From NCBI GenBank assembly GCA_015501585.1, contig JADNRY010000126.1, positions 1-64,000 on the forward strand: a stretch of 64,000 nt of DNA, written 5' to 3'. Below are positions 3,144 to 45,921 of the stretch, piece by piece. How positions within the stretch are numbered: position 1 is the stretch's first letter; the number at the start of each line of letters is the position of its first letter. The translations under genes and the position numbers were made by a program. Source of the DNA: Rhodocollybia butyracea (Eukaryota > Basidiomycota > Agaricomycetes > Agaricales > Omphalotaceae). The notes beneath the pieces were generated by a model. It saw only the letters and a list, made by a program, of their open reading frames with translations, had not been told where the DNA came from and did no database searches.

Positions 3144-4095
3144 CCTAAGTCATGGGATATCTTCAGGTTGTTTGATTAATCTTGGTGGGTTAACCCTAAG
3201 GATAAACCTTTATAACCGTAGTACAATCTTCCCAAGCAGCCCAGATATATTGTTGATTTTTGGGGGCACCCTTCAAACCGGGGGAAATCAAAGTAATGGA
3301 AGTTGTTTTAGCAATGAAAATGAACATTCGGTTAGCCAAAAGTTAGTGGGCAGCTGTTCTTGGTAAGCTGGTATAGGGCTTGAGAAGAAGGGGATAATAG
3401 AGCAAAAAATTATGACTCTGAGAATATAAAGGCATTTAACGAGCCAGGAAGAAAAACCGCTGGCCAAGTTGACAGGCAAAAGTGTTTGAATACTACCCAG
3501 GGCCCTTTGGCGTACTTTGACCTAAGCCCAAGCTGTTCTGTGTAGGTCGCTACTGGTCGCAGAGTTTTTCGGGAGTATTTCACCAAACCCCGGATATAAT
3601 GTCACCGTGTATAGAGCCCAGCGCTCTCAGCTGTTGATTCTTGGAGACAAATATGCTCAGTAGGAGGCTAGAAAGCGACTGATAACAGCTGCATTATTTT
3701 AAGGGTCAGGCAGGGCTGAGTGCAGGCTGTTGAATACCAGCATGTAGTTTTTTTCGGTATTGAGTATAATTCAGGCAATGCACACGTCAATATTGCCATT
3801 GACCTTACCAAGTATACTACCGATACACTCCTAGAGGCCTTGGCAACAACTTTCACCGCAGAGACACACAGCTCTTGACATTGTAGAGCACAATATAGAC
3901 AAGAACACCTTTGAGGGTACTAAAAAATGTGCATCTGAAAGAACAGCCCGTGGAGCAGAGCTTTGGGCCGTACCGGCCCAAAGCTCCTTGACCTCTGGTA
4001 CTTCCGATGTCTGGGAGCACGCCCATATAATTTTTGTGGCCAGTTTGATTGTCAAAGACGCAGCGGTTGTTCGCAAAAAAAAAACCCCTAAAAAA

Positions 4096-4115
4096 CCGAG
4101 TATTATAATACTTGG
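4096..4115. repeat. Perfect AT-rich palindrome
   Basis: AGTATTATAATACT at 4099-4112 is a perfect 14-bp palindrome, flanked by CC and GG that also pair. It stands at the left edge of the structured, GC-richer segment at 4140-4620, just after an A-run with CCCCTAAAA. Confidence 0.65.
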
Positions 4116-4144
4116 GTCAAGTATAATAGTAGGCCCGTAGTTTG

Positions 4145-4392
4145 GGCGTCTCTTCTCTCGGCCTGTCGGCTAGTGACCCGTAGACGCCTGGGGCGCTAAA
4201 CAGGTAGCGCGCTTAAGGTAACGTAAGATTTTGATCGACAGCTGTCCCCGGCGGATCTCGGCGTTTTGTGCTAACCCCACGGGATGTCAAGTGGCTTTGA
4301 TGCTAAGTCCGTCTTCTCGGGCTTCGGTCTTACTATTTAGGATTACGAGTTAGCCGATGCGACCGTACATCGGACGACGCTCACTAAGCGTC
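4145..4392 (+). ncRNA. Hairpin-dense non-coding segment
   Basis: Several perfect short stems follow each other: GGCGTCT (4145) with AGACGCC (4182), GCGCT (4193) with AGCGC (4206), CCGATG (4354) with CATCGG (4368), and GACGC (4376) with GCGTC (4388). No long open frame crosses it on either strand. Together with the ribozyme downstream it looks like a structured RNA, such as the untranslated end of a retroelement. The function is inferred only from fold potential. Confidence 0.45.
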
Positions 4393-4540
4393 TAATGTAT
4401 AAGGAGTATTGTTATCCCCTGGCAGCGTGGGACTGACCAATGGCACTAACAACGCTCGAACATGTGTTCCAAGATACAGGCAAAGTTCGTCAAGTACCAG
4501 AAGTACTATCGACGAGCAGTGTAAGTCTGTGACGATGTGA

Positions 4541-4612
4541 AACAGCCCTGATGAGCTATAAAAGCGAAACAGGATCTGGTGTAAGAAAGTATCTTACACC
4601 CTGTTGGCTGTT
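4541..4612 (+). ncRNA. Hammerhead ribozyme motif, type I
   Basis: All parts of a hammerhead self-cleaving RNA are present in order. Stem I is AACAGCC (4541-4547) with GGCTGTT (4606-4612). The core is CTGATGA (4548-4554). Stem II is GCT/AGC with an ATAAA loop. The second core is GAAA (4566-4569). Stem III is ACAG (4569-4572) with CTGT (4601-4604), then a 5-nt bulge and a perfect 8-bp helix GGTGTAAG/CTTACACC. The cleavage triplet is GTT, so cutting would fall after 4605. Stem I is the open stem, which makes it type I, and it can extend outward by one or more pairs. GUU is allowed by the NUH rule but is usually slower than GUC. Hammerheads are known in Penelope-like retroelements and retrozymes. 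Confidence 0.8.
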
Positions 4613-4654
4613 TTCGCTCTTACCCAACAAACTAACGAACTTGGCCCTTCCAAA

Positions 4655-4689
4655 AACGCCTCGTTCGCTTCGCTCACTCGTCGTTTTTG
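4655..4689. repeat. Inverted repeat AAAAACG/CGTTTTT
   Basis: AAAAACG is followed about 22 nt later by its complement, and the loop is made of TTCGCTTCGCTCACTCG-type sequence. It lies between the ribozyme and the telomere-type tract and may be part of the same element. Confidence 0.5.
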
Positions 4690-4697
4690 TCAGGACC

Positions 4698-4718
4698 AAC
4701 CCTAACCCCTAACCCTAA
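4698..4718 (-). repeat. Interstitial telomere repeat, about 3.5 units
   Basis: The plus strand reads as C-rich CCCTAA units, one with an extra C, which is the complement of the TTAGGG repeat used at telomeres of most filamentous fungi and mushrooms. It begins 86 bp downstream of the ribozyme. Such short interstitial tracts mark old chromosome ends, repair patches, or insertions of telomere-targeting retroelements. From 4719 to 5354 I see no gene or repeat I can name. Confidence 0.75.
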
Positions 4719-5354
4719 GAACTTCTAGAAAGGACCACCAACAAGCAGAACCGAAGCAAACTGCGATTCTTTGCTTGTAGATCGGAAAACAGAAGCTGAA
4801 AGCAACTAGGACCACACCCTTGGGGTAGAACGTGGACCCAAAAGCGTACGACTTCTGTTCCTCGCTGTAGGCAGAGAATACCGCAAAATAGACGTACAAA
4901 AATAGAATATATAAGACAGAGTCGCTATACCAGGTAAAGAGAGTCAGCGGTTGAAGGACGAAGGGGAAGACCCCCCAAACTCGAAAACCTGCCACAACTT
5001 TGGACTAGATGACACCATTGGGGGTAGAGCGTAACTAAGCCTCGGAAGAAGTAGTTTTCGTAGCCTGAGGAAAAAAGGGAACAGGAGAAATTACCTACCC
5101 CGCTGTGAGATCTTGGGCTCAGATCCCGGTAGTGGCCCTGGGAGGACGAGGCGGCCAGAGAGCGATAGGCGGAACAGAGAAGCCAGATCGAAAATGTACT
5201 GATGACCCAGAAGGATGAGAACGCCGTAATGTGAAAGATCCCGGCTGAAGACGGGGTCGATAATTATTGATTGTAATAGGAGAGAACTAATAAACGACGT
5301 ACCAGATTGGCGACAGAGCTGAACCAGCTGATCCCTCAATTAAAAGTTAAGATA

Positions 5355-5646
5355 GGTGAGCAAGCCACTGAGAAGAATAGTAGATCACCTATAGGCTGAA
5401 GACTGAACGAAGGTCGAAGGACAAGAGGTGGAAGCGTGGCGGGTTCCTGGGCAGCTGCAGGCAAATTTAGATAACGGTAGCATCTGAATTCGTCCGGCTT
5501 ACCCAAGGTGTTCTGGGGGATTTTCAGTTACTAACGGAGAGAGATGCCAACAACCTAGGGTAAAAATTTATAAGGGAAGCCAAAGCGGAAAGTAAGACCT
5601 ACTGTAAAACAGGTTGGCAGTTCTCAAGGGAATTGCTAGTGGCGGT
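5355..5646. repeat. 292-bp direct repeat, left copy
   Basis: Matches 7875-8166 over its whole length with scattered substitutions and no apparent net gap. Both start GGTGAGCAAGCCA and end GGAATTGCTAGTGGCGGTA. The right copy lies immediately upstream of the truncated kinase gene (minus strand), so the left copy may be a detached duplicate of its upstream region. From 5647 to 6571 nothing else is recognisable. Confidence 0.9.
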
Positions 5647-6571: not shown

Positions 6572-7745
6572 CTATGTCCATCGCGTCTCGAGAGCCTCCC
6601 CATTGTATGAAGTCATCAATGTCTTCACTTTCTGGTACGTCAACTCACCGCCCAACGTCTCCTGATCAAACTCAACACCCTGGTTCCGATTATCCTGATC
6701 GTGAGCTTGGTTGCGGTAGCCACGCCGGATAATTAAAAACATTGCCTCCAGCCATGGTTCAAAGAAGCGAAAGTGATGCTGGATTGGGATTGCAGACACT
6801 TGACCTCGAGTGATGAATTTGTTTTTGGCGCCCAGAATATCTGCATCCGTTCCGGCAAACCACTTGCTAAACGGCGGGTCACGACAACGTTTTCCGGGGG
6901 CTTCATAACGGCAAGCAAAGCAGAGAATGATATAGAACAATGACTCCAAGTCATGACGATACATATGGCCAAAATACCTGCTGTCATCGTCAAGCAAATC
7001 AAGAGCCATATACGGCCTGGTACCAGTACGCTGGTTCGAAGTCGCGGCTCCAGTTCGTGGAATGGATGAAGCTAGGTCAAAGTCATTTAGGACACCGTAT
7101 ATCTTGTCCTCAGTGCGCCGGAGCATGATGTTGCCAGGGCTCAGATCGCGATGGAGGATTTTGGCCTCTTCATACAGCCAACGGTGTACTAGGGCCAGGA
7201 TTAGATGGAAAATAAAGAGATGAACAACAAGACGTACTTTGAAGAATATCATAAAATATCTGAGCATAGTCCTTCGTGCTCGTCAGCGTATTAAGCGTTT
7301 CCAACTTCTCTAGGGTTGCTACGTGTACCGCGCGTTCTTCGTAGCCAGTAATTCCCTCTGCCTTGGAATGCTCTCTGAGTTTCGCCTGAGGAGTGTCATC
7401 CTTGTAAACAAAGGTGATAGAATCGAGGAGATCGGGAAGATGATTGAGAGCCCAATATGCAGATTTCTTCTCCTGGGCAATGCTTCGAGCTTTGGCGATG
7501 AGTTTGTCTTCAGGTTCTCGGTTTACACCTGGAAAGCTAACTTTCAGGACCAAAGATCGGCCGCGCCAGCCACATTTTTCAGCGTCGCTGCAAATACAGA
7601 TGACCTCGAGAACAACCGACATCCGATCAACGATTCCTTCTGAGCGAAACAGCACAGCTGTGATACGGAGAGTGCGCGTGTGGCCATCGGAACCTTCGAA
7701 TGTGTACTCTGCGTTGACAAGGCTGTCGGTGGATCCGTTCTTCAA
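6572..7745 (-). CDS. FunK1-type protein kinase, N-terminally truncated
   Basis: FunK1 kinases are a large fungal-specific protein kinase-like family expanded in mushrooms; substrates are mostly unknown. Two exons are clear: 7745-7238 and 7188-6572, with a 49-bp intron (GTACGT...CTAG). The catalytic loop HRDLSPGNIM and the metal-binding position as DFD (VLNDFDLAS) are present, as is the family signature around ESLFYIILCFACRYE. It aligns with the C-terminal half of the full-length kinase at 32323-35491 but lacks about 430 N-terminal residues. The frame stays open upstream of the first Met (QTFEELSQGL), so an upstream exon may exist, but I could not find the N-lobe. The gene lies between two 292-bp direct repeats. 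It is probably a truncated duplicate. Confidence 0.75.
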
Positions 7746-45828: not shown

Positions 45829-45921
45829 TGGACACACTGGGAATTGAACCCAGCACCCCCCGCATGCTCAAGCGTTGCCACCTTGCTAAGCGGATGTGAT
45901 AACCAACTACACCATGTGCCC
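45829..45921 (-). tRNA. tRNA-Ala (AGC) with intron
   Basis: The minus strand gives a full cloverleaf. The acceptor is GGGCACA/TGTGTCC with discriminator A, the D-arm is GTG...CAC with a TAGTTGGTTAT loop, and the T-arm is CTGGG/CCCAG with loop TTCAATT. The anticodon stem is TCCGC/GCGGG around TTAGCA, which places AGC at 34-36. About 19-20 nt between the anticodon and the 3' stem form an intron at the usual place. All other arms are canonical, so this should be a working gene. Confidence 0.85.

Follow-up and report, generated by a model that had tools for sequence, protein, structure and literature searches.

The first 64,000 nucleotides (nt) of contig JADNRY010000126.1 of the basidiomycete Rhodocollybia butyracea (hereafter the window; the start of contig C290 in a genome of 95.6 Mb and 1381 contigs) carry a type I hammerhead ribozyme motif. 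On balance, we consider it probable that this motif lies in the 3' end of a multicopy, likely telomere-attaching, endonuclease-less Penelope-like retrotransposon and is predicted to cut read-through RNA of arrays of the element. The class of the element is indicated by the position of the motif beside telomere-type repeats, which the initial annotation did not point out, and its identity as a telomere-attaching, endonuclease-less Penelope-like element is very probable. That the ribozyme cuts read-through RNA between the units of head-to-tail arrays is proposed tentatively, as a quite possible function.

The motif contains both cores, a GTT triplet at the expected place and three helices in the right order with an extended stem III, as the initial annotation described (Table 1). 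With CUGANGA and GAAA cores, three surrounding helices, an NUH triplet and an open end at stem I, the topology is that of a type I hammerhead, which also agrees with that annotation. The motif had been placed at 4541-4612 with a stem I of 7 bp; the motif stands, but its whole extent is 4539-4614 (plus strand), and stem I (4539-4547/4606-4614) has nine pairs, eight Watson-Crick and one G-U. Stem III is built from a base (A4569-T4604 plus 3-4 bp), a one-sided bulge of 4-5 nt and an upper helix of 8-9 bp closed by loop 4587-4591. This long stem should let the hammerhead work as a monomer. The predicted cut is between 4605 and 4606, which we take from general hammerhead rules.

A descriptor requiring both cores and stems I, II and III of at least 5, 3 and 4 bp matched only this motif in the window, and the stems found (9, 3 and 5 bp plus the upper helix) are above that minimum. 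Among 300 random 64-kb sequences with the same dinucleotide make-up, there was one match at these settings and four at 4, 2 and 4 bp. The folding energy of the motif is also far below that of shuffled sequences (z -4.0 and -4.7). A chance motif, already judged unlikely at the outset, was set aside: there are 20 copies, 18 of them with intact cores, a stem III pair is changed on both sides, and the motif is steadier than its flanks.

The copies were found using 4501-4720 as the query, which gave 23 genome matches; after removal of three fragments of 19-43 nt, 20 copies on 16 contigs remained. Further copies with an intact core, together with one compensated stem change, had been named in advance as a check on the motif, and both were present. 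The two copies in which the cores are not both intact are C1083, where the first G of GAAA is changed, and C470a, where one A is inserted in GAAA. Self-cleavage is predicted, from sequence, for the other 18. Across 25 stem pairs in 11 distinct rows, all 271 cells are standard pairs, versus 35-52% when the partners are slid. The only covarying pair is 4579-4599 (G-C in eight rows, U-A in three); its covariation score was matched by 2 of 500 shuffles, and the counts of changed pairs and types by 316 of 500. Over the 14 copies covering 4130-4650 (the six shorter copies were excluded), 4 of 76 columns vary inside the motif versus 69 of 434 outside (Fisher p 0.007, with columns taken as independent and the C470a insertion uncounted). 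The four are the two columns of the compensated pair, one bulge position and the C1083 core change. A covariance model built from the copies recovers all 20, by construction, and also gives weak opposite-strand matches at the same places (at most 20.8 bits), which are expected because the stems are palindromic.

In 17 of 20 copies, the 3' end runs straight into one to five CCCTAA or CCCCTAA units; those on C423, C573 and C1083 lack telomere-type units directly at the junction. The mixed three-C and four-C units match the terminal arrays of contigs C983 and C545. In the window, the predicted cut lies 93 nt from these repeats. The full tail (GTCAGGACCA) is present in 14 copies and ends 93-97 nt past the predicted cut, and the remaining six have a shorter tail. 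A terminal hairpin in the 93-nt tail was considered and rejected, as its fold is no better than that of shuffles (z -0.66; 46 of 200 as good). Thirteen of the 20 copies are found no more than 10 kb from a contig end, a zone that makes up at most 29% of the genome. In 16 of 20 copies, or 14 of 16 contigs, the 3' end faces away from whichever contig end is nearer (p 0.002), C201 and C470 being the exceptions. The p-values for position and orientation are approximate because contigs share some flanks. Four contigs (C201, C455, C1326 and C470) hold two copies each, all four pairs head to tail, so that tandem or partial-tandem copies, as expected of Penelope-like elements, are represented. At the end of C1326 (L026:1-44), directly 5' of a copy starting TTAGGATTA, the repeats are TTAGGA rather than TTAGGG, which may reflect slippage or an artefact. 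The window flank past the telomere units (4719-5400) is part of a different repeat family, which has 26 matches when pieces are counted singly.

Judged from their sequences, the copies represent the 3' end of one retrotransposon, and most are truncated on the 5' side. A reverse transcriptase of a single family is encoded upstream of the motif on 7 of 16 contigs, in the longer copies. The 5' ends vary (4293 in C1349, 4337 in C1326a, 4451 in C25, 4487 in C470b and 4531 in C80). The closest copy, on C983, lies downstream of the reverse transcriptase frame of that contig and matches the window copy at 99.7% identity over 579 nt; because copies reach this identity, the spread of the element is likely recent. 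The initial annotation had proposed a live or recent self-cleaving RNA of a mobile element: the mobile origin is supported by 20 copies and the upstream reverse transcriptase, recent spread is likely, and self-cleavage is a prediction. Among the copies examined, the longest is about 4.6 kb (C201); few long ones were seen, and no accessory genes were found in them.

The predicted fold of a relative of this reverse transcriptase is telomerase-like, with telomerase ranked first. Sequence searches of the PDB gave no clear relative, scans of viral and genome contigs found no relative of the reverse transcriptase, and the exact 23-base core is absent from all viral contigs searched. No match to a GIY-YIG endonuclease was detected in eight reverse transcriptase frames or seven relatives. 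Relatives outside this genome, covered as protein sequences, include ones from Lentinula, Armillaria and Psilocybe. A T5orf172/GIY-YIG-like frame occurs near the telomere-type array of C545 (L034:7018-7509, minus strand); it was rejected as the endonuclease of the element, as its family has 68 genome matches. We file the element as Penelope-like because of the telomerase-like reverse transcriptase, the lack of a detected endonuclease, the 3' hammerhead with C-rich repeats, the 5' truncation and the arrays.

Fungal telomere-associated Penelope-like elements were reportedly grouped under the name Coprina by Gladyshev and Arkhipova in 2007. By description, they resemble the present element in their fungal host, their location near contig ends and the absence of a detected endonuclease. 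Also said to be known, from the abstract of a 2014 paper by Cervera and De la Pena, are fungal Penelope-like hammerheads that are stable as monomers. Chromosome ends of Agaricus bisporus are reported to carry Penelope-like elements (PMC7473861), and another study lists five type III hammerhead hits in Pleurotus ostreatus, with no element named in the passages covered (PMC5040776). That hammerheads occur in Penelope-like elements and in Terminons is already published (PMC7761336, PMC6155905, PMC6431247). In the literature searched (titles, abstract starts and passages, with some key papers not covered), no mushroom telomere element with a hammerhead was described.

The closest parallel is with the Terminons and telomere-associated Penelope-like elements, whose reverse transcriptase lacks an endonuclease and which have a 3' hammerhead, C-rich telomere repeats, 5' truncation and arrays (PMC6431247). 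Like the Terminons/Athena of bdelloid rotifers, the R. butyracea element has no endonuclease found with its reverse transcriptase, a hammerhead close to its 3' end with C-rich telomere repeats beyond, 5'-truncated copies and head-to-tail arrays. Unlike them, it has repeats of the TTAGGG/TTAGGGG type, a spacer of 93 nt (or about 40-50 nt) and an extended stem III, and the longest copy examined, about 4.6 kb and with no accessory genes found, is short of the up to 40 kb that Terminons/Athena attain. It would be a new fungal member of the telomere-associated kind, grouped there by these shared features. The usual Penelope-like hammerheads are reported to be minimal, to lack helix III and possibly to act as dimers (PMC7761336, PMC6155905). 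The present motif shares their type I topology inside the terminal region of the element, but has a long stem III where theirs is usually absent. In Poseidon of Anolis carolinensis, insertion ends reportedly coincide with start sites of reverse transcription, and the cut is neither the start nor the end of any RNA read (PMC11167929). Poseidon is alike in having its hammerhead near the unit junction and ends that are not at the cut site, and unlike in its GIY-YIG endonuclease and AT-rich targets.

The features above are consistent with the following scheme. The C-rich 3' end of the element RNA would pair with the G-rich chromosome overhang, and the reverse transcriptase would extend the chromosome end on the element RNA as template. 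The new copy would usually be 5'-truncated and then be healed by telomerase. In arrays, the upstream hammerhead may cut between units to give a downstream RNA that starts about 150 nt before the coding region. This distance is seen once, in C201, between the cut site of the upstream unit and the coding region of the downstream unit. The two C201 copies differ in motif variant and tail and are thus two separate insertions; a rolling-circle origin of the pair was rejected for the same reason. Therefore, the pair does not show that the RNA of a unit itself starts at the cut. RNAs left uncut, or re-joined, at the 3' hammerhead would retain the tail and act as templates. What lies downstream of the cut site is retained in integrated copies, so their templates must have been uncut or re-joined there. 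This agrees with the Anolis element, whose hammerhead mutants reportedly still insert (PMC11167929).

Several results weigh against a cutting ribozyme. No copy found begins or ends at the predicted cut site; each of the 17 matches to 4135-4500 and of the 19 to 4606-4698 sits in a hammerhead-bearing copy. The Rfam scan of the window, which the initial annotation proposed as a check, returned no hammerhead at gathering score and nothing to Hammerhead_1; the best score, to Hammerhead_3, is 15.7 bits versus a cut-off of 48.5 (E 2.5) and in the wrong register, and so speaks against that annotation. The minimum-energy fold pairs part of the core with a strand of stem III and is not the active fold, which lies 2.7 kcal/mol above it (1.4 if further pairs are allowed); the base of stem III as in the active fold is present in 12-24% of the ensemble. 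The Rfam models may miss variants with a long stem III and a short stem II. An RF00163 search of the genome also found no match; this says little because the same search was silent in all 14 control genomes.

The main competing explanation, which we regard as rather unlikely, is that the fold acts as a docking structure at the 3' terminus and offers the telomere-complementary end to the reverse transcriptase, with cutting incidental. It would fit the absence of copy ends at the cut site and the telomere units that closely follow the fold on its 3' side in 17 of 20 copies. A similar idea has been published for rotifer Terminons (PMC6431247), and in the Anolis Penelope-like element hammerhead mutations reportedly left insertion in vitro unaffected (PMC11167929). 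Yet a mere scaffold would not need the catalytic core that is intact in 18 of 20 copies, and the 93-nt spacer separates the cut site from the telomere units. Less likely still is a dead relic, a hammerhead-like motif that does not cut: the sub-threshold Rfam score and the competing fold are in its favor, whereas the intact core, the compensated pair and the reduced variability of the motif are not. The competing fold could also be read as part of a fate switch, in which an intentionally slow ribozyme, restrained by that fold, splits transcripts into two classes. Cut RNAs would then be capless messages lacking the telomere-docking tail, and uncut RNAs would be tail-bearing templates that extend chromosome ends beside telomerase. 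We think this quite unlikely.

We find it improbable that recombination or break-induced copying between chromosome ends, instead of retrotransposition, was the main route by which the subterminal copies spread. The copies on C423 and C573 have a common 3' flank, and C290 and C478 a common upstream repeat, as such copying would leave, but the 3' flanks of most copies differ, their 3' ends are of two fixed kinds and their 5' ends vary, a combination that is a hallmark of reverse transcription starting at the 3' end. Finally, a retrozyme, in which the 0.6-kb segment would be a small non-autonomous unit spreading as self-cleaved circular RNA, could explain the non-coding window copy of about 0.6 kb, the head-to-tail pairs and, through circular templates, junctions downstream of the cut site, but is very improbable and largely refuted, given the same 3' end downstream of one-family reverse transcriptase on 7 of 16 contigs, the variable 5' ends and the separate insertions, not one circular template, of the C201 pair.

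What hammerheads do in Penelope-like elements is described as unknown (PMC7761336). The present analysis adds the junction census, the 93-nt spacer, the lack of copy ends at the cut site and natural core-broken variants. The junctions indicate integration without use of the cut end, and among the 20 copies the two core-broken variants (C1083 and C470a) could be used as controls. Given cultures of the host or a relative, the role of the ribozyme at telomeres would be directly testable. Lentinula edodes, the host of a relative, is cultivated.

Table 1. Coordinates of the hammerhead motif, its parts and the adjoining features in the window.
Feature	Position	Strand	Basis or remark
Type I hammerhead ribozyme motif, whole	4539..4614	+	Anatomy, 20-copy alignment, pair counts, flanks more variable
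Stem I, 5' strand	4539..4547	+	Pairs with 4606-4614
CUGAUGA core (DNA: CTGATGA)	4548..4554	+	Intact in 20/20 copies
Stem II and its loop	4555..4565	+	GCT/AGC, 3 bp, 5-nt loop
GAAA core	4566..4569	+	Intact in 18/20 copies; altered in C1083 and C470a
Extended stem III	4569..4604	+	Pair 4579-4599: G-C mostly, U-A in C423, C573 and C1083
GUU (DNA: GTT) cleavage triplet	4603..4605	+	Read in the sequence
Tail from predicted cut site to element 3' end	4606..4698	+	93 nt, terminal letters GTCAGGACCA
Putative 5'-truncated 3' end (3' untranslated region) of retrotransposon	4130..4698	+	Matches 3' regions of other copies
Telomere-type repeats CCCTAACCCCTAACCCTAA at 3' junction	4700..4718	+	Repeat type as in the arrays ending C983 and C545
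Unrelated dispersed repeat adjoining the element on its 5' side, outside it	3601..4134	+	10 genome matches

Six of the matches to the dispersed repeat are at 99-100% and four at 85% (the query ended at 4134). The repeat adjoins the element both in the window copy and in C478, at different points of the element, and is common to the two contigs as far as 4134, the point at which the C478 match stops.

A second Penelope-like reverse transcriptase family was identified on C503 (L050:1012-3342). It has 27% identity, is interrupted by stops and occurs at one place only, besides weaker matches to the first family. About 290 nt past its frame is a hammerhead core that scores 30.0 bits to Hammerhead_3 (E 1.1e-4), below the 48.5 cut-off, and that is not accepted by our descriptor. 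Possibly, two Penelope-like families with different hammerhead types are present in one genome.

Also present in the window are two arrays of one 50-bp tandem repeat (1432-1550 and 2280-2448). A like array in C478 bears CCTGATGAGCC on the minus strand; the array is not a hammerhead because the repeat unit lacks GAAA. Two tRNA genes, at 389-484 and 45829-45921 (minus strand), have long inserts in the anticodon arm that are apparently introns, and a fungal protein kinase fragment is encoded at 6572-7267 on the minus strand (Pfam Pkinase_fungal, E 8.8e-26).
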